The position numbers and the translations under genes were made by a program. A stretch of DNA of 64,000 nucleotides from Daphnia pulex (taxonomy: Eukaryota > Arthropoda > Branchiopoda > Diplostraca > Daphniidae): contig NC_060017.1 in assembly GCF_021134715.1 (NCBI RefSeq), forward strand, positions 372,001 through 436,000, given 5' to 3'. Below are positions 16,891 to 60,972 of this stretch, in pieces; positions within the stretch are counted from its first letter, which is position 1, and each line of letters starts with the position of its first letter. The notes beneath the pieces were generated by a model. It was not told the DNA's origin, ran no database searches, and saw nothing but the letters and a program-made list of their open reading frames with translations.

Positions 16891-17036
16891 TTTTCTTTTT
16901 ACAATTCTTCTTCACAAGACTGTTAAATGAATGATTTTATTTAATTAAAGAACTGAACATTAAAGTGTCTGGAATATTATTTTACCCACCAAGTTATTAT
17001 TTTGAAATGTAGATGAGATACTGGTATTCCTCAAAG

Positions 17037-17434
17037 TTAGTATTGTTGAAATTGATTCAAATCCTCTTGCAAATTACAGCAGTATTTAAGGTAGACAGAT
17101 CGAAGACCTAAAAATATTTAACATTTCAGCAAAAACATTATTTTCATATTAATCAATGCAGTGTTATGAAAGTTTTGATGAAATTTATTTAATCTTTACC
17201 TGAGTACACAGCCACTCGATGTTTTAGGACGTACTGAAGTTTATGAAACCGAGGTTTTCTGGACAATCTTCTCAGCATAACCTGAAGTTCCAGGATTTTT
17301 TCATTTATTGAGGCCAAATGTTTCTTTGCTTCTTGCAACTTTCGTTGACGAGCTGCTATAGCTTCTTCACTTAGAACAACTTCTGATGGACCGTTGATAG
17401 CAAAATTAATCACGGGACGTTCAGCAACGTCCAT
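17037..17434 (-). CDS. small coiled-coil protein of unknown function
   Basis: Two exons (17434-17200 and 17107-17037) join in frame (CTCAG at the donor, TTTTTAG at the acceptor) to give 101 residues. The first part (MDVAERPVINFAINGPSEVV) is followed by a charged helix with heptad-like spacing (AARQRKLQEAKKHLASINEK) that would form a coiled coil. The C-terminal part is basic, then ends in CCNLQEDLNQFQQY. I do not recognise the family. It lies between GTF3C6 and borealin on the same strand. The clean splice sites and helical composition argue for a real gene. Confidence 0.6.
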
Positions 17435-18402
17435 TTCGTCTCACTTATTAAGACAAAAAAAAAGAATGAACATTTCCCCCAGAGGAAAAGGCGTATTCTG
17501 TTCTGTGTCTGTTCTGTTTTCTCCTCGATGACCTCCTGTGTTCCTGTTCTCCGAGCCGGAGTTGTCAGGTGTTCGCCAATAAACTTTCAAATCGCTATAA
17601 GAGATGGCGTTGTCGTCGAACGATTTTTTAAAACTTGAGTTTATATTTTTTTTAATCGTATTTTTATTTAGACGAATAAATGTTTACGTCATGATCAAGT
17701 ACTCACCACTGCAGATTCAGAAACACAAAGAAAAACCTGCTTCCATGAAACAGTACTTTTATGATAGTAAGTATCCTACGGTTTTAATTTATCCCACACT
17801 GAAGAACAAAAACTACCAGTGGGGGCTACCCGTCTGCTTGCAAGAGCTTATTCTCATTTTCAAGTTGGGAATAAAAATAAAAAATACCGACTAATAATCA
17901 TTTCTCCGTATCACATGCAAGGCGCATTTCTTTTCCTTGGCAAATAAAGATTTTTAGCACCAACATTTTCAAGTCTCTAATTCCAAAGCATTTCGTCGGC
18001 GCTTAATAAACCAGGGCACGAAATACGAAAGGTGTCACTATCAGGACAATTACTAACTAATCCCTTTTACTTATAGTTAGGTTTGCAAAATATAGTACAG
18101 TGAAATTTCAAAATTGTATTATGTGTGATTAAACACGAGTGGTTTACAGATAGAAAGACACAAGAATATTCTGTGTGATCAAAACGGAAATACAACGCGA
18201 AGAGCGAGAAAAAGAACACAGAAATCTATTATTTATTCTTTGCGCGACCTGTGATTTTTGTATGTTTTTTCGAAAGCTTTATAGGTATTTAATGTTTCTG
18301 GGTTGTTTTCAAAAAATGCAACGACCGATTCCTGGAAAAGCATTTGTAATCCGTTAAGTAGTTTTTAATTTTGGTATTGTGCAGATCATGATATTAACAC
18401 TG
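17435..18402. other. intergenic between the coiled-coil gene and borealin
   Basis: A plus-strand open frame at 17604-17894 (96 residues, hydrophobic N terminus) cannot be tied to any family and is not called. The sequence is otherwise AT-rich and featureless. Confidence 0.4.
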
Positions 18403-19378
18403 TTAATTTACCTCATCTCCTACTGCAGTCAATTTTCGTGCAGATAATTTTGATGGATTGCTTTCAACTGGGCTGCCCTTTTCGGAATACAATCTCTAGA
18501 AAAACAATTTAAAATACACACCATGAAAACAAAACTCAATATATTATGTTGTATGCACAATATTGTCATACCTCTCCTGGGATTTGAAGTCTTGTATTAA
18601 TTATATCACCAGTTGCTGGGTCAAATTTGGGTGTGAAGATGGGAATCTGAATATATCAATGTTAGTAATAATGAATTAATGATTAAAAATATGCTTGTAT
18701 GATAATAAAAGAATGAATGCCTTATTGTTTGCCAGTCTTGATGAGCTTCGTATTGCAGGAGTTTCCATTTTGGATGATCCTGAATTTTCAAATACATGAT
18801 TAACAATTTTGGAAAACTGATTAAATAATAGCATTACCAGTTGAAAGTGCAAAGTTGTGAGCATCGTGATTAGTTTCAATTGCTTTATCTGGTAAAGTGT
18901 TGGGAGTTTCTTGACTTTGATTTTTTCTTAATTTCTAAAAAATAAAAACTCATTGAAAATATAGAGTAAATGCATTCTCTGAAAGTGTGTACTATTTTAC
19001 ATACCAAATATTCACCCCATTTCATTTTCTTAACGTTTAATGGGATCTTCAAAATTGCACTAATAAATGGAAGAGTTAAACTCTCAATCATCCGTTGTTT
19101 GTTTTCGAGCATATCCTTTAAGGTCATTTCAACTGTTAAAAAAGTAAATGAGTTAAAATAATATTATCCAATACATTCATAGAACAAATTAGTCAATAAA
19201 CATTGTGACATAGCTTACCATTTCGGTCAAAGTCCTTCCTGAGAACAATTTTTTGTTTATCTTCATCAACGAACGTAGGAAAACGATTTTTCTTGTCCTT
19301 AGAAGAAGGAGGAGTGCTGCAAGACGAAGAATTGTCTTCTTGGTTTGTAACACTCGCTTTACGACGAATCCTTCCCAT
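18403..19378 (-). CDS. CDCA8: borealin (chromosomal passenger complex subunit)
   Basis: Borealin binds INCENP and survivin in a three-helix bundle and helps place Aurora B at centromeres. Six exons (19378-19219, 19132-19005, 18934-18838, 18779-18721, 18646-18572, 18495-18403) sum to 612 nt and give 203 residues. The N-terminal helix KDFDRNVEMTLKDMLENKQ and LKIPLNVKKMKWGEYL match human borealin KDFDREVEIRIKQIE / LRLPKALREMNWLDYF. The conserved FTPKFDP, then IPGERLYSEKGSPV, matches ITPRFDS, then AAGERIYNISGNGSP. Intron 4 has a GC donor (AAG|GCATTC); using it is what keeps the frame. The protein stops soon after the GSP motif and so lacks the C-terminal dimerisation region of human borealin (280 residues). 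The start codon lies about 150 bp from the large KDZ transposon. Confidence 0.9.
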
Positions 19379-19530
19379 CGTAAGTTTTTTTCACGATTTT
19401 TTGGCTCGACACTTTCCGTTCGGAATTCCAGAGGGAGAACACAATGGCAGAATTTTGAATGAATGGACGTTGCCACACGGATTTTTTCTTCGTAAATACA
19501 GCATTGCCACAAACGAAAAAGTCAAAATCG

Positions 19531-19652
19531 CAACTTGATCTCGGTCGTCTGGACGAACCCTACCGACTTTCATGGGTACGACATTTAGACGGTAGGGTTC
19601 GTCCAGACGACCCTAGGAACGGTAGCGCTCGTCGTGGCGGAGGGCTACAACA
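19531..19652 (+). repeat. left terminal inverted repeat of the KDZ element
   Basis: The 122-bp arm is the exact reverse complement of 27309-27430. Within the arm, 19544-19565 and 19590-19611 are themselves a perfect 22-bp inverted repeat with a 24-bp loop (stem begins GTCGTCTGGACGAACC), so each transposon end can form a hairpin or give a dimeric transposase a palindromic binding site. Confidence 0.93.
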
Positions 19653-19780
19653 CACTGCAGTGTGAATACGAATAGTGTAATGTAAACACACACAACCTAC
19701 GTGCTAATTAGTGAATTTTGTGTTATTCTCTTCTTTAGATGTAGTTGTAGATTAGAATCTGTTTTATCTTTATTATCATA

Positions 19781-21991
19781 ATGACAAGTGTTCCACCCGA
19801 GTTGGAAGGACCAACAGTAAATCCGGACTTTGATGAAGCCCAAACACAAACAGATAGGTTTGAGTATGGAAAAGGATACGATTTATCGTATTTTCAAGAT
19901 ATTAGGGTATGTTTGCATGAAATATGCTATTGTTTAAGTGACTTTTATATAGATTCTTTTGTTATAGGAGAAATATCAAGGAAGGAGGAATGTAAGACGG
20001 AGGAAAGTTCCACACCAGCAAGGCCTTGTTGAAACCACAACAACATATCCAACCCGCCCAGCACTTTGGTTAGATTTCAAAAAGTCAAAAACAACCTGCA
20101 GCTCCAGACGAGCATCAATCCACAACATTGTAAGTATAAAGGCGGTATAAAGACTAACATATTTCTGGTACATGTTATTTACACTTTGTAATTTTATGTT
20201 TTAGCAATCTAAAACAGCGATAGAAAATGGAATGGACCATTTTACTCTGTCAGCATCCCAAAATGTAAAAGAATGGTCCACTGATGTAAGTGGGTATGGT
20301 AATCTTGCAGGTGAATTCATGAAAACACAAGAATGTCATGATGCAGTAGACGCTTGGACTGCTTTGGTTAGAAAACATCAATGTAAGTCCATGTTTTGTT
20401 CTTATATAGACTTTTAATGACATGTATATTCTATTATAGTGAAAAGGGAAAAAGATTCAGAATGGATTGCCCATCACAAAGAAGCCGAGGATCAACGCAA
20501 GAGGAAACGTGTGGAAACCATTTACGGTAAAACTTCCGGTTGTTTGGCCGCAACAAGGACTGAGGCCGCTGCTTCTAACGCTAATCGGCATAGTAATGGA
20601 GGTAGAATCATGTCAATAGGTAATTCTTAAAGGTAGAACATTGTTAAGTCACAATAAATGTGGAGTACTATTGAAACTAAATAGGGTCCACTGCGCAGAT
20701 TTCAACTTTGGAATTGAATTGCCAAGAAGATGGTGTAGAACAAATCAGAAATACTCAGCACAGTCGTGGTAGCATGCAACTTTTGAGAGGAGGTAAGCCA
20801 GTAATTTGGTCTAGGAATTGTTTTTCAGTGTATTAATTTGAGTAACTATTTTATTCTAGCAGGACAGTTGACTGAAGCTGATCAACCAAATCAACAGCCT
20901 CCATTGCCGGCCACTCCTAGTCAAATCAATGTCGATCATTTTCATCAGCTTTCTCGTGAGCTTTCATTAATTCTTTTAAAGTTAAGTCCCAATGAATGTG
21001 GTGTACTATTGAAACTAAATAGGGTCCACTGCAGATACGCAGATTTCAACTTTGGAATTGAATTGCCAAGAAGATGGTGTAGTACAAATCAGCAATACTC
21101 AGCACATTCGTGGTAGCATGCAACTTTTGAGAGGAGGTAAGCCAGTAATTTAGTCTAGGAATTGTTTTTCAGTGTATTAATTTGAGTAACTATTTTATGC
21201 TAGCAGGACAGTTGGACGAAGATGATCCACCCAATCAACAGCCTCCATTGCCGGCCACTCCTAGTCAAATCAATGTCGATCATTTTCATCAGCTTTCTCG
21301 TGAGTTTTCATTCATTCTTTTAAAGTGTAGTCCCTATTAATGTGGTGTACCATTAAAACTTAATAGGGGCCAATGTGGACACGCAGGATTCATCTTTTGG
21401 ATTGGATTGCCAAGTGAATGGTGTAGTACAAGTCAGCAATACTCAGCGCAGTCATAGTAACATGCAACTTTTGAGTCGAGGTAAGCCAGTAATTTAGTCA
21501 ATGAATTGTATTTAAGTGTATTAATTTGAGTAACTATTTTATGCAAGCAGGACAGTTGGACGAAGATTATCCACCAAATCAACAGCCTCAATTAACGGCT
21601 AATATTTTTTCATCTATATCGTCTAATACCAATCGATCTACTTCGGTCAATGCCAAACCTGGAAGAGGCCGTTCGACCGGTAGCGGAACCGGATCGAGAA
21701 GAGGTAACAGAGGTTCTCAAATCCGGGCTGTTCCAGTTAGTGGAGAAGGTGTGACACGGAATTCGTATACTACAGCCTACTGCTACCAATCAATGTATTA
21801 TGCCCTGAAACCAAATTCAAGCCCACCAGAGGTATTATTTTGATGCACAATTTGATAATGCAAGTAGTTGCAAATTGTATTGTTTTATTTATTAAAATTT
21901 TCAGTACTACTTCATATCGAAAGGAAAGCTTCCGTCGCAGTATTCGATTACCATTGAACTTCAAAAAGCTCCTGTCTTAGCTAAATGTTAG
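19781..21991 (+). CDS. second gene of the KDZ transposon, unknown function
   Basis: A multi-exon plus-strand gene inside the transposon. The first exon starts MTSVPPELEGPTVNPDFDEA. The next exons begin about 19969, 20205 and 20440 and read EKYQGRRNVRRRKVPHQQG, TRPALWLDFKKSKTT, FTLSASQNVKEWSTDVSG, ECHDAVDAWTALVRKHQ and EWIAHHKEAEDQRKRKR, with GT/AG borders. A region of three repeated exon pairs follows (20640-21560). The last exons read RGRSTGSGTGSRRGNRGSQI, then YYFISKGKLPSQYS, and end at TAG 21989-21991. I know no domain in it. The basic patches and the low-complexity RG/SG-rich tail suggest nucleic-acid binding, perhaps as an accessory factor for the transposase; that is inference. Confidence 0.6.
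20640..21560 (+). repeat. three tandem copies of a ~342-bp exon-pair unit
   Basis: Units start near 20640, 20981 and 21324; the third is partial. Each holds an exon reading STLELNCQEDGV or a variant and a second exon reading AGQLTEADQPNQQPPLPATP or a variant, with the introns between them. Copies 1 and 2 are nearly identical; copy 3 has drifted. The units are probably internal duplications that lengthen the encoded protein by whole exons. Confidence 0.85.
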
Positions 21992-22629
21992 AGATGCGGA
22001 TGCGATAGAGATTCGGCTGAATTCCTCGCGTTTTTTTTATATTTTTTAAATATGATTTTTTTAAATATGCATATGTTATAATCAAGAAAGGTTGTTTGAA
22101 ACAGCTTGTGTTTTTTTAATAAAGTGACTTGCCAAAGTAGCTCGGTTATTTTTTTATCACTCATTCTGGAGCACTGGGCACCTGGCCAATTTTTAGTCTC
22201 AACGCTACATAAGTAGTTGACCCCCCTCCCTCCCCCCCCAGGTTGAGCCAATGTACTGTGATGAGCATAAAGAAGGAAAAACTATCTTTGAACAATTTAC
22301 CGTCTTACTAACTTGTGATGAACATAGGATTTTTCGCCATGATGATTGATGAAGTTCATTCCATCAGAACTGTGGCGGGTTCAAAACGATATGTATGCAT
22401 TGTAACTCCATTAAAATATATTTTGATAAATGAAGAATTCAATCAAAATAAGTAACGTAGTCACGTAGATATAAGTACGTATTCACCAATATAAAAAGTA
22501 CAAATCCCATCACAATCACGTATAATTTGTGGGGGGAAAAATCATTAGTACCGATCAAGTATTTCTTGGGAAGTCGTTTACCGCATGCAAGTAAATAAAA
22601 GTTTTTTATGCGTTTTTTCATTGTATTAT

Positions 22630-23650
22630 TAGCCAGCCGCATAATAGTGTGCGTGAAAATAAAAATTATTTCGCAGTGAATTACACATGCGTATGTTCAT
22701 ATTAGGCTTATTCTGAATTGATATTTCGATTCAGCATAAAAATCTGAGTCAGAGTTGTAAATTTCATTAATTTTGGTTGTCAGCCGCCCAGTAGCGCGCG
22801 TGAAAATAAAAAATTCGTTCGCAGTGAATTACACATGCGTATGTTCATATTAGGCTTATTCTGAATTGATATTTCGATTCAGCATAAAAATCTGAGTCAG
22901 AGTTGTAAATTTCATTAATTTTGGTTGTCAGCCGCCCAGTAGCGCGCGTGAAAATAAAAAATTCGTTCGCAGTGAATTACACATGCGTATGTTCATATTA
23001 GGCCGATTCTGAATTGATATTTCGATTCAGCGTAAAAAGCTGAGTCGGAATTGTAAATTTCATTAATTTTGGTTGTCAGCCGCCTAGTAGCGTGCGTGAA
23101 AATAAAAATTCGTTCACGGTTAATTACACAAACGTGTGTTCATTTAAGGCTAATTCTGACCAGATATTCCGATTCAGCGTCAAAAGTTGAGTTAGAGGTG
23201 TAATTTTCATTCATATTGGTGGTAGCCTGCGGGAGTTATTGGTTTACGACACTTTTTTTTTAAGGAAAAAAAGCGCAGTAACTCGCTTACAGTTACAGGG
23301 CGGACTTTTTTCAGTAAAACATTTGATCGCTAAAAACTAAATCCCGCAGGCTACTACCACAATGAATGAAAATTACACCTCTAACTCAACTTTTGACGCT
23401 GAATCGGAATATCAGGTCAGAATTAGCCTTAAATGAACACACGTTTGTGTAATTAACCGTGAACGAATTTTTATTTTCACGCACGCTACTATGCGGCTGA
23501 ACCACTAACATTAATAAAAATTACACCTCTAACTCAACTTTTGACGCTGAATCGTAATATCATGTCAGATTAAGTCTGATATCAACATAGGCATGTATAA
23601 TTAACTGCGAAATAATTTTATTTTCACGCGCACTCGGATAGGCCTATAGG
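22630..23650. repeat. 148-bp tandem and inverted repeat array nested in the KDZ element
   Basis: Four direct copies (anchors ACACATGCGTATGTTC at about 22683, 22831 and 22979, with a diverged fourth at 23126) are followed by a ~100-bp spacer and then two copies in the opposite orientation (about 23345-23490 and 23515-23650). The two halves form a large imperfect palindrome centred near 23290. Each unit carries the words CAGCCGCCCAGTAGCG and TCATTAATTTTGGTTGTC. It sits exactly between the 3' ends of the two transposon genes and may be a separate MITE-like insert or a structural part of the transposon. Confidence 0.8.
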
Positions 23651-23791
23651 GATGACGAATAATGTTAATGAAACAAATCAAAAACCTCATAATTATACTT
23701 TTATTCCCTTTCATCAATAGCTCCATTTCAAAAGTAGCCCTAATTACAGGATTTGCATAACTATATATAAGAGAGTTTCAAACGATCGATA

Positions 23792-26700
23792 TTAATTGTT
23801 TCCTTCATTGTCCTCGTCAGCGTAGTCTTGATAATCGTTTGTCTCTTCGTCGCTGTAATCCTGGTAATCAGCAGTCTCCTCTTCGCTATCTTCTTCGTAT
23901 GCTTCATTTTCCTCATCACCATCTTCTTGAATATTATCTAATAGAAGGTCTTCGATGCCATTTTCAATGTCGTAGGCGAACGTGTCTTCATCCAAAAAGT
24001 CGGATTCGACATCGAAGAGCATAGTCGCATCAGCCAAAACTTTCTTCCATCGCGCAATTTCGAGTTGTTTAAGAACAATTTGTCCTCGGTGAAACTGTTG
24101 ATTCCCTGCACTGACTGTAATCAGTCAATAAATTACTTAACAAACCATACTAAGTTAAATTCAAGACTCGTAACATACTTTGATCCTGGAGTTTTTTAAT
24201 ATCTTCTTCTAAGTTTCTTCGAACTTTACAAATGGTCTCAATGAATGTCACCATTTCCTTTTCGGTTTGAATCACTTCTTCGCGAAATCTCTGTTCTAGC
24301 ATCCACGCATTCACAGCTTGAAAGTGATTTGAAACAGAAACTAAAAAGCATAACAATATTAAGTGAAGGAGAATAAAAAACCAAAATATGTATACTCTGT
24401 ACCAACGGAATTGTGCCAGGGAAAGATCCCACTCTTTTTGTGCTCCTCCGTCACAACAACATTATATTTGTTGTTCATCTCCTCGATTAATTTGTCTGAC
24501 CTAGTCTTCAGAATTACGATTTTTCTTCTATGGACAGTCCTTGCTTTCGCGCTGTCTACAAATTAATTCATAATTTATCAAGTATAAATTAGTATAACTT
24601 ATTGATTAGCTGTTACCCGCAAACTTCATTTCGCGTGCTTGCAGTTGCCTTATTGCTAGAGCTATACCCTCAAGTTCTACTTGGATATTACCAACAGTCC
24701 AGTTCCCGTCAACTCGTTTGTCTCGTACTTGTTTTGCTTGGACAACTAGTTGTTTCATTATCTTAGGCATGTCGCCCTCCTGCACATGGAGTTTTTCCAA
24801 CCAACCACGGAATTCTTTTCCGTAGTCGATGGCTTTCTTCTTGGCCTTATTTCAAGAAAACAGTAATCTAGACTATGTATTTTAAAGAATTTAAAAGTTT
24901 TTTTTACAGTCTTAAGGCGTTTAGGCAGAGTAAAAACCATTTTCTTCTCTTTGCTTGTATTTTCATAGATAAAACCTTTAGTTAGGTGATCGTTTCTGTC
25001 TAAAAGTACAAAAAGTCAACACAAACGTGAAATCGCTACTCAATTTAAAATTTCTCACTAGAACTAGTCATGTGCTTTGTAGATGCATTGTATCTTGAGA
25101 TTTTACTGAAACCTTGTTCCATTTCTTCTCCGACGGTCGCAGCAGCGCCTTTCCGAAAATGACCGAACCATAATACCTTAATCAAATATAAATTATGCAA
25201 CTGCAATTGAACAAAAATTCAAATGAACTGTAACAATGGTACCTGACACGCCCAAGCATGCGCTTTCCCATGAAATCGTGAAAGAAAAGGTTTCATCTTT
25301 GTCGTCAGACAAGCAAACCTAGCATTAATGTTTCCTAGTTTTTTAGCGAAAGGCCAGTAACGGCAGATGACGTCATAACAGAAAAACAATATCCCGAATT
25401 GCAATGCCCACCATTGAAGGAAAGCAATTACTCGGTATGTTTCACCACGATGAATGTTAGCTGCACGGAGAACTAAACCGTGTCGACAGCACATACACAC
25501 GATCCCTGTTTCATCCATTTTCTTTGAATGGGAATGAGAATCAGATTTTCCGGCTTTGAATGTGGAACCACCACATGTAGCGTTCCCTTTAGTCTGAAAG
25601 AAAGATAAATTTAACATATGTACCGATTAGGATTGTGGACCAGCATACCTCAGGAATAGCTTTGTTAACTTCCGCAACAAAAGCTTCTACGTCATCATTT
25701 CTCGCAATCGCCACGTTTTCCAATAGCTCTTTCGCTCCATGACTAGACAATAACAGGGAAAAGTTTTGAAAAAGTGGAGTAAGGACAAAATTATAACATA
25801 TGTTGTTTACCCTTGAGCCGATTCACATCTATAACATTTCATGTTGCCGTCAACATGACAAGCTAGCGGTTTGGCTCCGCAAGCTTTGCATTTCATGTGC
25901 TCTACCCTTAATATCTCTTTTTGAATTCGAATACGATTAAACTCGTATTCTCTTACAGCCATGAGGAATTCGGTGTTACTCAAACTGGTGCACTACAAAT
26001 ATAAGGGTGGATAAATTAAGGAATTAGACAAAAAAAAAATTACAACTTACTCGATTATGTTGTTCAGAGATTTCTTGAATAGTTTCTACAATTTTGTTCA
26101 TGGAAATACCAGGCATTTTGTGTTGAAAATGCCAGCACCAGTCCAGAAGATCAGTACAAATGAGAAAGAATGAAGTCTCATCTACAGCGGATGATGGCTG
26201 AAAGCCAGAAACAAAATAATCTTCCGCTTTTGCTTCGAACCAATAAAGGCAAACGTTGCACTCCACAACAGTTGACTTCATATCCCAACGACCTGAAATC
26301 GAAATGCACCGTAATTAAGCGAAATCTGTTTAAATATCAATAACGCTGAAGTTGCCCTCATTTACCATTGGCTGTAACTACGGCTACGTCTCTTGAACCA
26401 GGTTTCGTAGTACACGAATGAGGGCTTTTGCATTCTGGACAGGAAGTCACAAGTAAAGGAAGTGACACTAATACAAGATAATTATTAATCTACATATATA
26501 ATTCAAGAAAGCATTATTACCTTCAACAGTGATGTACCCATCTTCAGATATGAACTCGTTTTGGCGCAAGAATTTTAAATTTTCGCCATTCTCACACACC
26601 TCCCTATTGTGTAGTACCAGTTTGCGGTGAGTGATCATATCACATTTGCTGCAGAAATCTTGCTTGCAAGTAAAGCAACGAACAGGATTAGTGACTTTTT

Positions 26701-27218
26701 CACATACACCACATTTACTTTCAGTGTAGGAACGGGAGCTAATGTAGTTTTGAAAGACAGCATCTCTCTTGGAATCCCAAGCATCTTCCTTGTCTTTCAT
26801 GCGAGTTTTCCACTCGCTTTCTTGATTGGCTTCCTTTTTCTTCTTGTTATATTGTAAAATGCTTGCTTCAATGATGTCTTGTTCCAGTGCGACTGAATGA
26901 ATTATATCCTGTACACCACTTCTTTCTGTAACCAATAGAACATTTTTAATCGTAAACTTGAACACGAACTTTGATAAACCTACCATTACTGGGAGTTATT
27001 TCACTAGCAGTACCAGCACTTTCTTGATTAGAAACTGTTACAACTTCATCAGGTTGGGTAACATTTTGGCCTCTGTTTCTGCCAAAATTTTGGAAGAAGT
27101 TCCCTGAACGTTTAACCCTTACCCGTTCTTGTTGTAAAGTATCATTTTTTCGTTTTTCGGCTTTGGTTCTGGTTCGATGCCCGGCCAAAGAATCTTTAAG
27201 CAAATCTCTGCCTGACAT
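23792..27218 (-). CDS. KDZ transposase, multi-exon
   Basis: About 13 exons run leftwards from 27218 (MSGRDLLKDSLAGHRTRTKA). A Cys-rich zinc region follows (CGVCEKVTNPVRCFTCKQDF, then CSKC; next exon SCPECKSPHSC), as expected for the CxC domains of this family. The exon VECNVCLYWFEAKAEDYF, then LICTDLLDWCWHF, and the next one (CKACGAKPLACHVDGNMKCY) lead to the catalytic core at about 25594-25242. There CGGSTFKAG is followed by DETGIVCMCCRHG, GETYRVIAFLQWW, YDVICRYWPFAKKLG and FHGKAHAWACQ, the pattern of the RNase H-like KDZ fold. The next exon has GEEMEQGFSKISRY, matching the late acidic motif. The protein ends in a very acidic tail (23792-24037). No stop or frameshift is seen across the exons I could join, so the enzyme may be active. 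Confidence 0.85.
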
Positions 27219-27308
27219 ACTGTGAGAAACGGCACTAAACCTGCACTAAACCTGAATTGACACTTTTGAACTGCTTTTTGTTTATATTGACCAATATAGA
27301 CAGTATGT

Positions 27309-27430
27309 TGTTGTAGCCCTCCGCCACGACGAGCGCTACCGTTCCTAGGGTCGTCTGGACGAACCCTACCGTCTAAATGTCGTACCCATGAAAGTCGGTA
27401 GGGTTCGTCCAGACGACCGAGATCAAGTTG
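27309..27430 (-). repeat. right terminal inverted repeat of the KDZ element
   Basis: Reverse complement of 19531-19652. It carries the same internal 22-bp palindrome. Confidence 0.93.
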
Positions 27431-27438
27431 CAAAATCG

Positions 27439-28391
27439 GGAAGATAGTTTTTTTTTTTTATCAGTTTTTAAAATGATAAATAATTTGTTCTGTCATGGTT
27501 CTGTAAAGTCAGTATATATATATATTGTCTCTCCATACCCATGGTTCCGTATTACTTAAAAAAAAAACTTGTTTCTATTTTTTAAGCATGAGGGGATCTT
27601 CCAGCGAATATAGAGACGAATATGTCGTTTTATTGTCGCAATAGCAATAGCGTAACGCTATCTATCAAACGATGAAATTGAATTAACTTTAACTAGGAAT
27701 GGCCAGTTAAAATTTTAAAATGGAAAAAAATCAGGAAAAGTACGAGTGTACGACAAATGATAAAATTAATGTAAATGCTCGTAAGCGTAGAAAAACGGAC
27801 GAGTTTTGTTTTTGGATAATAAGAAACCTGCGTTCACGGGTCGTACTCATGCATCACACGTTTCCAGAACTAGGACACAGCATCCATTTCCGCGCCGTCA
27901 ACCTAGATGTGACACATTATTCATTCTATTTGAAAGAAGTGGGAATGTTGTTGTAGAAAAGCAGATATTTATCACAAACAAGCACTACTGTCTTGCAAGT
28001 TGTATTCATCAGATATACGAGGAAGCAGGAAAATGAGCTATTACGTTATTGCCCTGAGTGAAAGGGAGATCTTTGGCAACCTACATTGCCGCTGACTCAC
28101 AAACTAGCCCATTAAAAAAAAAATCACAATCGCCTACCGGAATGAATGTAACACAACCTGCCGAAGTGAAATTCAGCGTTGACCGGACTTGAGAAATATG
28201 GGGACAGTTTCACAGGATGCGGAAACTTCCTCATTGTCATGTCCGATACCGCGCCTATATAAACAAGCTCTAAACTTCTTAATCAGGATCATTCAGTTTG
28301 TCAGGTTATAGTTTCGGTTTAAAAATTAACGGCGCCACCGGAGAAGCCAACGCGAATTTTTGTGCCACTGTACACTCAGCCCATTGAAGTG
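27439..28391. other. intergenic, old right flank of the transposon target
   Basis: Before the insertion this DNA adjoined the borealin 5' region. The overlapping plus-strand frames at 27720-28036 (MEKNQEKYECTTNDK...) have no recognisable content and are not called. A TATA-like GCGCCTATATAAACAAG at about 28252-28268 lies roughly 130 bp before the next gene's start codon. Confidence 0.4.
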
Positions 28392-30855
28392 ATGATTCGT
28401 CCGTTCCGTTTTCCCATGTTGTCCATTTCAGGTAAATATATTAAGTTCCAGTTAATATGGTCAAATCAACAGAGGCTTAGGAATTTAAGTAAGTTCAGTA
28501 AAATGATTGAATTGACTTAATTACAGTATGGACGACATTGCTTCTTTTGGTGATTTCCTTTGGTCATGCTCTAAACGAAGACGATCAAGACGGTGGACCT
28601 CCTTCGCATCGTAGCAATAGCTCACAATCCTCAGGCCTGTTGATGAATCAAGCTGGTCGTCTTCCAATCAGCAACAATAATAACCCTTCGTCGTTCTTTC
28701 GGCAGCAAACACCCCAGCAGTTTGGCGGATTACCTTTCCAACAGTCAGGGATTGGATTTCCGTTCAACGGAGCGGCAGGAGGGTTCCAGCAAAATGGATT
28801 TCCACAGCTAAATAGTTTCCAACAGAGCGGAATCCCACAGCAGAGTGGCTTCCAGCAGAGCAGTTTTCCACTGAATAGTTTTTCGCAAAACGGCTTCCAG
28901 CAGCCAGCCTTCCAGCAAAGCAGTTTGCCTCAAAACAGTTTTCTACAAAATGGCTTTCAGCAAAGCAGTTTCCCACAAAACAGCTTCCAACAAACACTGC
29001 CCCAACAGCAAAACGGCGCACTGCTGGGCCAAGGAAGTCAATTTAATTCATTGGGTTTGCAGAATCAACTAGTTGGAGCACAACTGGGTCTTCAAAATCA
29101 ATTCAGTGGAAACAATTTCCAAAATCAGCTGGGCATTCAGAACCAGTTGGGATTTTCTCAAAATCCTTTTGGGCTGGGCCTATTGCAGCAACAAAATCAA
29201 CTGGGTCTCCAAAACCAGTTTGGTTTGTCTAATCAATTAGGTATTCAAAATCAGATGGGCGTTCAAAATCCGTTTTTGCTTCAAAATCAACTGGGACTCC
29301 AGAATCAATTAAAAGGACAACAGCAAAGCCCCTTTAGCTTTTCGCAACAGTTAGGTGGTTCGTCTGGGTTCAGCAACGATCCTCAATTGGGATTCGGGCA
29401 GTCGAGCTTCGGTAATTTCCCGCAGAATAACGGCGGATCTCAATTTGGCGGAGCAGGCTTCGGAACGGGATCAACTTCTTCCTTGGGATCTAATCAGATC
29501 CTTTTGCAAGGAGGCCAGTTTCAGGATTCTTCTTCACCGTCGGGTTTACAATTCGGATCCCAAATCCGCTTCCCCTTTGGCACATCGTCTTTGACAAACA
29601 ATCGTTTCCCCAGTAATAGTCAGGCCGGTTTGGGTGAGTCCCAATTTGGAAGTCAATTCACCAATAACCAATTCAATAACAGAGATCCATTCATGAGCCA
29701 GCGACCCCAGTTGCAATCTTCGCTCGACACTAGACAACAAAATCGACTAGGCCGTGATGGCGAATTCTTTCCAAACGAACGAGCTCTGTCTTTCAACAAC
29801 ACATTCGACGGTACTTCTCAATTCCAGTCGCTTCAGCAGCAGCAGCAACCGCAACAACAGCCGGCGATAAATCCATTTCTTTCGCAGCAGTTTTTGGGAT
29901 CTTTTAACAACCAACAACCCTTTGCTGGTGGAAACCCACTACCTTTGTCATTTAACCAAGAGCAGCTGCGTCCACAGCAGTTCAATCCTTTTCCTTCGAC
30001 GTTGAATCAACAACAGTCACAGAACCAACAACAGTTAGGGCCATTTGGTACCCTGCCGTCGTTCAACGATCGGCCGCCGATGCAATTTAACAAGGCGCCT
30101 TTCATCAACAACAATCAACAAGATTTTGGCCCGAATCAATCATTGATGGGTACATCGGGAAACACTTTATCGGAACAACAACAAATGCGCCAGCCACAAA
30201 AGCCTCAGCAAGCGCAATCACTTCCACTACCCATTCCCATGACTGGATTTTCCTGTGAAGGCCGTCCTCCAGGTAATTCAGATTTTTCCAATTCATCCTT
30301 GAAGCCAGAACACGAATAACTCTAATCGTTTTGTTGATTCGATATTTCCCAGGTTATTATGCGGACATGAAGAATGAATGTCGAACTTTCCACATTTGCA
30401 TCGACGATGGGTCAACAACTGGACTGAAAAGATCATTCGCTTGCCCCAACGGCACTTTATTTGATCAAGTCAATAGCGTTTGCCAGTGGAAGGATGACAT
30501 GGATTGCTCCAGGAGTCAGCTCTTTTTCCCCCGTCCGGCAGCCTCTACAACAGCATCGATTAAATCAAACAGCGGAGATATCCGCCCTACATCGAGTCCT
30601 TTCAATACGCAGATTCAGTCGCCGCCGAGGAATAATTTCGCTGACAGCACTCCACCGACCAGTTTTCTGCATTTTGGCGTCGGGCAACCCAGTCCGTCTC
30701 ACGGCTCCCTCGACGCCGGACGTAGTCTTGATGACACAAGACGGAATGCGGACATCAGCCCCATTCGATCGAGAAGCACTTTATATACTCCACCACAAAT
30801 CCGGCCGCCACTCTTTCGTCCTTCCGAGCAGCTAGATGATCGCCGGAAGGCGTAA
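28392..30855 (+). CDS. secreted Gln-rich protein with one chitin-binding type-2 domain
   Basis: Three exons (28392-28431, 28527-30272, 30353-30855) give 762 residues in frame. The N terminus (MIRPFRFPMLSISV, then WTTLLLLVISFGHALN) is a signal peptide that spans intron 1. A long Gln/Asn/Phe/Gly-rich repeat region follows: first FQQSGFQQSSFPLNSF-type repeats, then about ten GLQNQLGLQNQF-type repeats. The peritrophin-A/CBM14 domain follows: CEGRPPGYYADMKNECRTFH, then CIDDG, LKRSFACPNGTLFDQ and VCQWKDDMDC, with six Cys in the expected spacing and a tail with NG and FDQ typical of cuticle forms. It is secreted and should bind chitin in cuticle or peritrophic matrix. One domain only suggests a CPAP1-like member. 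Confidence 0.88.
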
Positions 30856-59131: not shown

Positions 59132-60750
59132 TCAAACGTGCAATTGCTGTTTACCAACAGCGGTTAACCTAGTAATAAAAAATTGTTTATCTTCCGCTTC
59201 GAGGATCAGTTGTGACGTGAGTGATTCTACCACAGCACGATTCGCCACAGCTTTAGAGCGATAATAATAGAGAGCGACCAGTAAAATCAAAATAGCGGGT
59301 ACGAAGAATCCAGCGGATCCAAAAAAGAAAAGAATATTTTTCAACGTGTCTGACAACGTTTCCACCTAAATAGGACCAAAATAAAACCATTAAACTCAAT
59401 TCACCAATGAAACCCGAGGAAACTAATTTGTTGGAATTACCTCACTGGATATGGCCGACCAAAGTGTGTGTGAGATCGGTGGCGTGGTGGTGGTGAAGTA
59501 GGAAAGAAAGAGGATCAAAGATGGCCACCGGGGGGACATCTTCGTCGTTGACATCTGCCAAGAAAGAAAAATTCCAGCAAAACCAGCGATACTGGACGAG
59601 AGCAGGGAATCGCTCAGTTTGTTGTCAATCCTCCAGGCGTTGGATGTTCCGGTGACTGAAGATCAAGCCTGGGCAATTTTATACCAGTCGGCTAAGACGG
59701 CCCTCCAGTGTTTCAACAGCGCCAATCCTCGTGAAATGCAGGTGATGAAGTGCTTCGTCGTCAAATTACCGTCTCACCTTTGGATTCATCGCGACGGTAC
59801 CAGTCGGCCAAGACAGGCCTCTTTTCATCCATCTGAAAATAATTCAAAAATAAAAAAGGTGTGCGTCATGTTCTCTCTCCCCCATTCCAGCACCATTGCT
59901 TTTAAGGAATCTTTTTTTGCCGCGCTTCCGGTGATGGATGATGTGAAATGTCTTTTATTCTCTCCATCTTTTTTGATTATTTCTACGTGTGTGTGTGTGG
60001 CTCTCGTTTGGATAAAGGGGCGATAAAGAAAAGAAGGAAATCAAGAACAAAAGGCTTTTAACCGCATCCACACGCTCCCGCGGTCTCCAGTCTTCTCTCT
60101 CTCTCTCTCATTTGCATATCTTGTGTGTGTGTGGAATGTCGGACTGGTCGGTGGGGATCAAAGAACAAGGGAGAAGAAAAAACAGAAGACCAAAAGACAG
60201 ATGAAGGATGGAAAAAGAAAATAGAAGAGAAAGAAGAGAAGATAAGTCAACTCACCTGTGATTGACACTCGGCTACCGTCCGCCTTTCAGCTATAAAAGG
60301 GAACGACAGAAAACAAAAAAATGAATAAATCAATTCGAAAAAAAAACCATTTCTTTTTCTTTTTTAAAAAATAATATGGACGGTGTGTGGTAGGAGGAGA
60401 AGAGCAGACGACAGTTGACACTCACCTTCGATGGAATCGGCGGCCACCTGGAACGAGTGCGGGTGAACGTGACCGTCGCGATGAATCCAAAGGTGAGACG
60501 GTAATTTGACGACGAAGCACTTCATCACCTGCATTTCACGAGGATTGGCGCTGTTGAAACACTGGAGGGCCGTCTTAGCCGACTGGTATAAAATTGCCCA
60601 GGCTTGATCTTCAGTCACCGGAACATCCAACGCCCGGAGGATTGACAACAAGCTGAGCGATTCCCTGCTCTCGTCCAGTATCGCTGGTTTTTGCTGGAAT
60701 TTCTCTTTCTTCGCAGACGTCAACGACGAAGATGTCCACCCGGTGGCCAT
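59132..60750 (-). CDS. short protein with a spire-type KIND domain start and a transmembrane C terminus
   Basis: Three exons (60750-60426, 60290-60256, 59365-59132) give 197 residues in frame, all with good splice sites. Exon 1 (MATGWTSSSLTSAKKEKFQQ) contains the first half of a KIND domain: LSLLSILRALDVPVTEDQAW, then AILYQSAKTAL, HLWIHRDGHVHPHSFQ. Exon 2 reads ERRTVAECQSQ, where a full spire KIND domain would go on with its second half. Exon 3 instead encodes a membrane segment (FFVPAILILLVALYYY) and a short tail (about 50 residues). Spire-family actin nucleators have KIND, WH2 and FYVE-like modules; none of the later ones are here. This may be a truncated or refashioned duplicate. The third exon could belong to another gene. 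Confidence 0.6.
59463..59990 (+). pseudogene. inverted duplicate of the KIND first exon
   Basis: 59463-59798 on the plus strand is nearly identical to 60472-60810 on the minus strand, covering the 5' leader, the ATG region and most of the KIND exon. The copy carries a one-base deletion in an A-run about 60 bp after the ATG, so its reading frame breaks early, although the later KIND words (ALDVPVTEDQAWAILYQSAK) stay open in another frame. Beyond 59798 it reads ACCAGTCGGCCAAGACAGGC, a second, altered copy of sequence found at 59673, so the junction was rearranged. Confidence 0.85.
60090..60245. repeat. simple-sequence tracts
   Basis: A (CT)n run (about 60095-60110), a (GT)n run (about 60123-60133) and a purine-only stretch (60172-60245) lie between the two KIND copies. 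Confidence 0.7.
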
Positions 60751-60972
60751 CTTTGATCCTCTTTCTTTCCTACTTCCACCACCACCACGCCACCGATCAC
60801 ACACACACTACACACTACGGTAACACACTGAATTTTCGGCCGATTCGATTTTTCCGATAAAACCGGCCCCATGCACATACACACCACCAATCTCACACAC
60901 ACGAAATCAATCAGAGTTAACGACCTCGTGCAGCTGACCTCCTCAAACTGAAAGAAGAAGATTGATGTCCTG

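Follow-up and report, generated by a model that had tools for sequence, protein, structure and literature searches.

Transposons of the KDZ (Kyakuja-Dileera-Zisupton) class are an established group of DNA transposons, and members with extra genes are already known. According to the excerpted text of one account (PMC9297572), Zisupton elements have been found in fish, fungi, algae and diplogastrid nematodes, and BLASTP places relatives in lancelets, sea stars and mussels; both Zisupton and Kyakuja occur in relatives of Chlamydomonas (PMC8226300, in excerpt). Among the Hymenoptera, the excerpt of another source reports Zisupton from one wasp only (PMC6327564). KDZ elements in fungi often carry accessory genes, and a giant KDZ element of 31.7 kb has been seen to transpose in Chlamydomonas, as stated in the passages available from PMC12477816.

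EFX64608, presumably a Daphnia accession, is one of the proteins that Iyer et al. related to KDZ, as named in the excerpted part of PMC12730594. An assembly survey, also seen in excerpt, puts the share of Zisupton at 0.04% in the assembly of D. magna and at 0.00% in that of D. pulex (PMC8594854). The earlier note on the DNA studied here held complete crustacean copies to be rarely described, and the D. magna value makes this an overstatement, even though it comes from a survey and does not stand for a full-length copy that has been described. In the literature on Zisupton together with Daphnia or crustaceans, judged mostly by titles, no title announces a full-length crustacean KDZ element, though one may still be in print.

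We analysed a window of 64,000 nucleotides of the D. pulex genome (contig NC_060017.1), to which all coordinates refer. Within this window lies what is very probably a complete, autonomous-looking KDZ element, a new copy of an established class rather than a new class. With its exact ends, target duplication and two open genes, such a copy is a defined substrate on which to study whether DNA can be moved by a KDZ transposase from an animal, and whether movement requires the second gene.

Anatomy and genomic setting of the element

The element measures 7,900 bp from one terminal inverted repeat (TIR) to the other, 19531 to 27430 (Table 1). Its two TIRs are identical at all 122 positions. When the flanks were compared at duplication lengths from 2 to 12, they matched at length 8 only, with CAAAATCG on both sides; the chance background is low, as 2.9e-5 of the 8-mer pairs between the two 2-kb flanks are identical. 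The perfect duplication and the matching ends had both been claimed in the earlier note, and both are borne out here. That note does not mention the CxC3 domain, an aspartate in an upstream DGN motif (residue 376), the central palindrome or the repeat within gene 1.

Table 1. Positions of the element's parts and of the adjoining gene within the 64-kb window.
Feature	Position	Strand	Basis or remark
Borealin-like gene	19378 down to about 18233	-	Nbl1_Borealin_N 1.6e-8, Borealin 1.2e-4; gene spliced by eye
Left target-site duplication, CAAAATCG	19523..19530	.	flank comparison
Left TIR, 122 bp	19531..19652	+	26-bp inverted arms inside, 19543-19568 / 19587-19612
Gene 1, 11 exons, 514 or 511 aa, without known family	19781..21991	+	splicing, splice scan
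Gene 1 exons 1-5	19781-19906, 19968-20129, 20205-20382, 20440-20619, 20685-20792	+	splicing
Gene 1 exons 6-8	20860 or 20863-20955, 21023-21136, 21204 or 21207-21299	+	splicing
Gene 1 exons 9-11	21367-21480, 21548 or 21551-21831, 21905-21991	+	splicing
344-bp tandem repeat, 2.8 copies	20643..21593	+	exon pair of gene 1 plus introns per copy
Imperfect palindrome, ~1.1 kb, between the coding regions	22585..23714	.	148-bp units: about four left, about two inverted right
KDZ transposase gene, 13 exons, 895 aa	23792..27218	-	splicing, Pfam, splice scan; exons 10-13 less secure
Transposase exons 3-4, nearly all of the CxC3 match (residues 213-326)	26051..26467	-	Pfam; residues 213 and 214 start in exon 2
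Transposase exons 5-9, KDZ domain match (residues 373-586)	24908..25992	-	Pfam
Candidate acidic residues	D376 at 25851; D494 at 25374; E554/E555/E557 at 25128/25125/25119	-	position in spliced protein
Right TIR, 122 bp	27309..27430	-	100% identical to left copy
Right target-site duplication, CAAAATCG	27431..27438	.	flank comparison

Inside each TIR, two 26-bp arms stand as an inverted pair, which gives four such sites in all; these are likely to be the sites bound by the transposase. Folded as single-stranded DNA, the left TIR reaches a z of -8.14, and none of 200 shuffles is equally stable. Within the 64-kb window, the first 30 bases of the TIR (up to 3 mismatches allowed) were found at the two ends only, and blastn of the whole element gave no match outside the element itself. 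A 24-base piece of the TIR had no match in a collection of viral contigs, a scope in which a miss says little, and no RNA family reached its gathering score in the region 17000-30000.

The setting of the insertion is also worth a comment. The left duplication starts 145 bp upstream of the start codon of the borealin-like gene, and an insertion this large at such a position could alter a cell-division gene. The transposon parts the borealin-like gene from its upstream sequence. On the other side, about 0.95 kb right of the element, there is an apparent gene start on the plus strand with a CBM_14 domain further on, the start and the unity of this gene having been read by eye. Pfam assigns five of ten neighbouring open frames to a family (fucosyltransferase, TFIIIC subunit 6, CBM_14, actin and LIM). 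Such neighbours, borealin included, are in keeping with an animal host, probably an arthropod. Farther off in the window, 59495-59798 and 60472-60776 form an inverted duplication of an exon-like piece (220 nt at 99% and 88 nt at 95% identity), and each copy has an open frame with a match to the KIND domain (1.9e-8 and 3.3e-9).

The transposase gene

The transposase reads through 895 residues with no internal stop across 12 GT-AG introns of 53-73 bp, in agreement with the open, spliced gene described before. The earlier note had proposed a search of its exons against the KDZ profile; on the spliced protein this search gives a match to Pfam KDZ (PF18758) at E 1.9e-30, with 106.6 bits against a cut-off of 26.6, over profile positions 5-213 of 217. 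The KDZ-associated cysteine cluster CxC3 (PF18804) sits upstream of the KDZ domain and is matched over its full profile (1-113 of 113, E 1.7e-33). The assignment to the KDZ class with complete ends, as put forward in the earlier note, thus has the profiles and the anatomy on its side. Splicing lifts the KDZ score from the 64.9 bits of the exon 7 frame by itself (E 1.1e-17), and the open frame of exon 4 matches CxC3 by itself at 3.2e-27. Since the KDZ match spans exons 5-9, the junctions of these exons are backed by homology. Past residue 586, Pfam finds no domain above its cut-off.

The core motifs DETG (residue 447), YDVICRYWP (493) and GEEMEQ (553), which had been noticed previously, are all in place, and a DGN motif contributes D376. 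The acidic residues D376, D447, D494 and E554/555/557 are present, as read from the sequence. By the family pattern, D376, D494 and one glutamate of GEEMEQ presumably make up the catalytic set. It is later work that has given KDZ an RNase H-type DDE core. In 2013, Zisupton was counted among the superfamilies lacking a DDE transposase, in the excerpted text of PMC3706591.

The exon structure was also examined with a splice scan, which takes no protein input and is controlled by 40 random sequences of equal neighbour frequencies. At default settings, the scan recovered the first eight exons and the beginning of the ninth (656 aa), with a score that none of the 40 random sequences reached (z 27.0); on the antisense strand the score was reached by 9/40 and does not stand out. 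Under a first, stricter scan the models were truncated, to 544 aa in the transposase and to 239 aa in gene 1. With intermediate settings the scan returned an 881-aa variant with a different exon 11-12 junction, and with the loosest settings it recovered the 895-aa model, again at a score reached by 0/40. Random sequences also give long models at the loosest settings (mean 446, maximum 647 codons, n=40), and exons 10-13 are therefore the least secure part of the gene. Introns 7, 9 and 11 have weak donors, which score 0.0, -1.7 and -3.1.

For the transposase, solved structures in the PDB gave eight weak matches (best 0.47), which we take as chance. In the viral contig collection, the one candidate stretch for the transposase was not confirmed, nor was any of the 21 candidates for the 224-residue catalytic core among bacterial and archaeal contigs; with viral and prokaryotic scopes, such misses say little.

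The second gene

The part of the element most likely to be new is gene 1. The earlier note had spoken of two convergent genes, the second of unknown function. The genes do face each other, with 19781-21991 on the plus strand and 27218-23792 on the minus strand, and for the gene 1 protein Pfam yields nothing above its cut-off (best E 0.024) and the PDB nothing at E 10. Its first 215 of 514 residues gave three candidates among viral contigs, none of them confirmed, in a viral scope where a miss says little. The two possible lengths, 514 and 511 aa, are set by CAG-CAG double acceptors.

The splice scan rebuilds gene 1 unaided with all of its exons, at a score that no random sequence out of 40 reached (z 12.5); the antisense score was reached by 19 of the 40 and does not stand out. 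Codon usage gives a mixed picture. The frame is favoured over its whole length (z 7.2) and in exons 1-4 (z 3.0), yet for the latter the reverse strand scores higher (22-28 versus 4.6 bits), and no such preference is seen in exons 10-11 (z -1.4). Because of this mixture, the case for gene 1 rests on the splice-scan control.

Exons 5-10 overlap the 344-bp tandem repeat. Copies 1 and 2 differ by 6 bp in the first exon, and so the frame is kept between them. The dN/dS values of the repeat copies (0.6, 2.1 and 1.4, over 50-52 codons) give no clear sign of purifying selection. The idea that the exons of the repeat change faster than its introns was dropped for lack of significance (Fisher p 0.51, 0.23 and 0.13).

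A possible mode of movement and its alternatives

Taken together, these parts would fit a cut-and-paste element. The transposase would bind the 26-bp sites standing in inverted orientation within each end; its acidic residues, with D376, D494 and a GEEMEQ glutamate as the best guess, would cut the element out; and the excised element would be joined to a staggered 8-bp cut in the target. Gene 1 would most likely encode an accessory protein aiding mobility, either by binding the DNA or chromatin of the element or by countering silencing. Such a helper is suggested by the lysine and arginine content of exons 2 and 4 (24% and 22%, against 8% in exon 3 and 11% in the whole protein).

How recently the element moved is a different matter. 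The earlier note read the matching arms as a sign of recent movement, a reading that we do not follow. Whereas a single template gives rise to both LTRs when a retrotransposon inserts, this does not hold for the ends of a DNA transposon, and 100% identity of such ends alone therefore gives no date. The perfect duplication and the open frames are compatible with recent movement and fall short of proving it. There is in fact an appreciable chance, if a minor one, that the copy is a structurally whole yet immobile relic, silenced or unable to move, whose ends are alike through conversion, constraint or low mutation. The three weak donors in the transposase would suit such a relic, as would the mutation-accumulation lines of D. 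magna, in which the excerpt of PMC8594854 marks Zisupton as not active, whereas two spliced frames free of stops and frameshifts, along with perfect ends and duplication, speak against it. That the element belongs to another superfamily is most improbable: 8-bp duplications are usual for hAT, for example (PMC12730594, in excerpt), while the transposase matches KDZ and CxC3 strongly and hAT is absent among the seven families listed up to E 5.

The autonomous-looking KDZ element that we favour leaves room for different origins of its inner parts. Gene 1 may be a captured host gene or a passenger with no part in mobility, which we consider rather unlikely. It scores above cut-off with none of the family models, and its repeat lacks clear constraint, as might be true of a passenger; against this, the gene is open across 11 exons between the ends of the element, and capture might leave a recognisable host domain, of which Pfam finds none above cut-off. 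A more specific and bolder proposal, on which we would place somewhat less weight, is that gene 1 is the founder of a new family of KDZ accessory proteins in animals, acting as a fast-changing helper, with repeated exons as part of its make-up, in DNA or chromatin binding or in anti-silencing, and thus a counterpart to the role proposed for the TET/JBP dioxygenases in fungal KDZ elements. The central palindrome, for its part, has a substantial chance, not far short of even, of being a nested insertion between the genes, either a fold-back or some other element. Its long inverted arms are made of tandem 148-bp units, and in Ectocarpus most families of giant transposons, including KDZ, contain nested insertions (PMC12477816, in excerpt); at the edges 22585 and 23714, however, inspection by eye found no clear target duplication.

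In the reading that we favour, the palindrome may be a spacer only, and it probably lies in the 3' regions of both genes. The first AATAAA past the stop of gene 1 is at 22118, ahead of the palindrome, and that past the stop of the transposase (minus strand) is at 23700, just within the outer edge; further AATAAA sites are found inside at 22594 and 22658 and at 23617 and 23470. The spacer past gene 1 also holds a short exon-like open stretch on the plus strand (22239-22348), directly 3' of a C-rich tract ending in CAG, and Pfam gives no match for it.

Comparison with known KDZ elements

Zisupton, first described in fish, shares with the Daphnia element a KDZ transposase with many exons and TIRs (PMC9297572) and a target duplication of 8 bp (PMC12730594), both sources being excerpts, as are those cited below. 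In platyfish, the cysteine cluster of Zisupton is CxC7 (PMC12062965), whereas the element here has CxC3; the Pfam listing for the transposase, which runs up to E 5, shows no CxC7, an absence whose weight depends on the library holding a CxC7 model. In Pristionchus there are two Zisupton families, with proteins of 1166 and 1367 aa compared to 895 aa here, and in those families a target duplication was not found (PMC9297572).

The fungal members of the class differ in other ways. Kyakuja of mushroom fungi belongs to the same KDZ class, but two families in Laccaria have 7-bp duplications and no TIRs (PMC12730594), in contrast to the 8 bp and the 122-bp TIRs found here. Dileera of rust fungi shares the KDZ transposase, the 8-bp duplication and the presence of an extra gene within the element (PMC12730594). 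That extra gene is a TET/JBP dioxygenase (PMC12730594), while gene 1 is without a Pfam family above cut-off. Ectocarpus and Chlamydomonas have giant elements that are also of the KDZ class, and both additional genes and nested insertions are reported from giant transposon families (PMC12477816). These giants are generally larger than 10 kb and reach 30.3 kb in Ectocarpus and 31.7 kb in Chlamydomonas (PMC12477816), whereas the Daphnia element holds its two genes, palindrome and ends within 7.9 kb.
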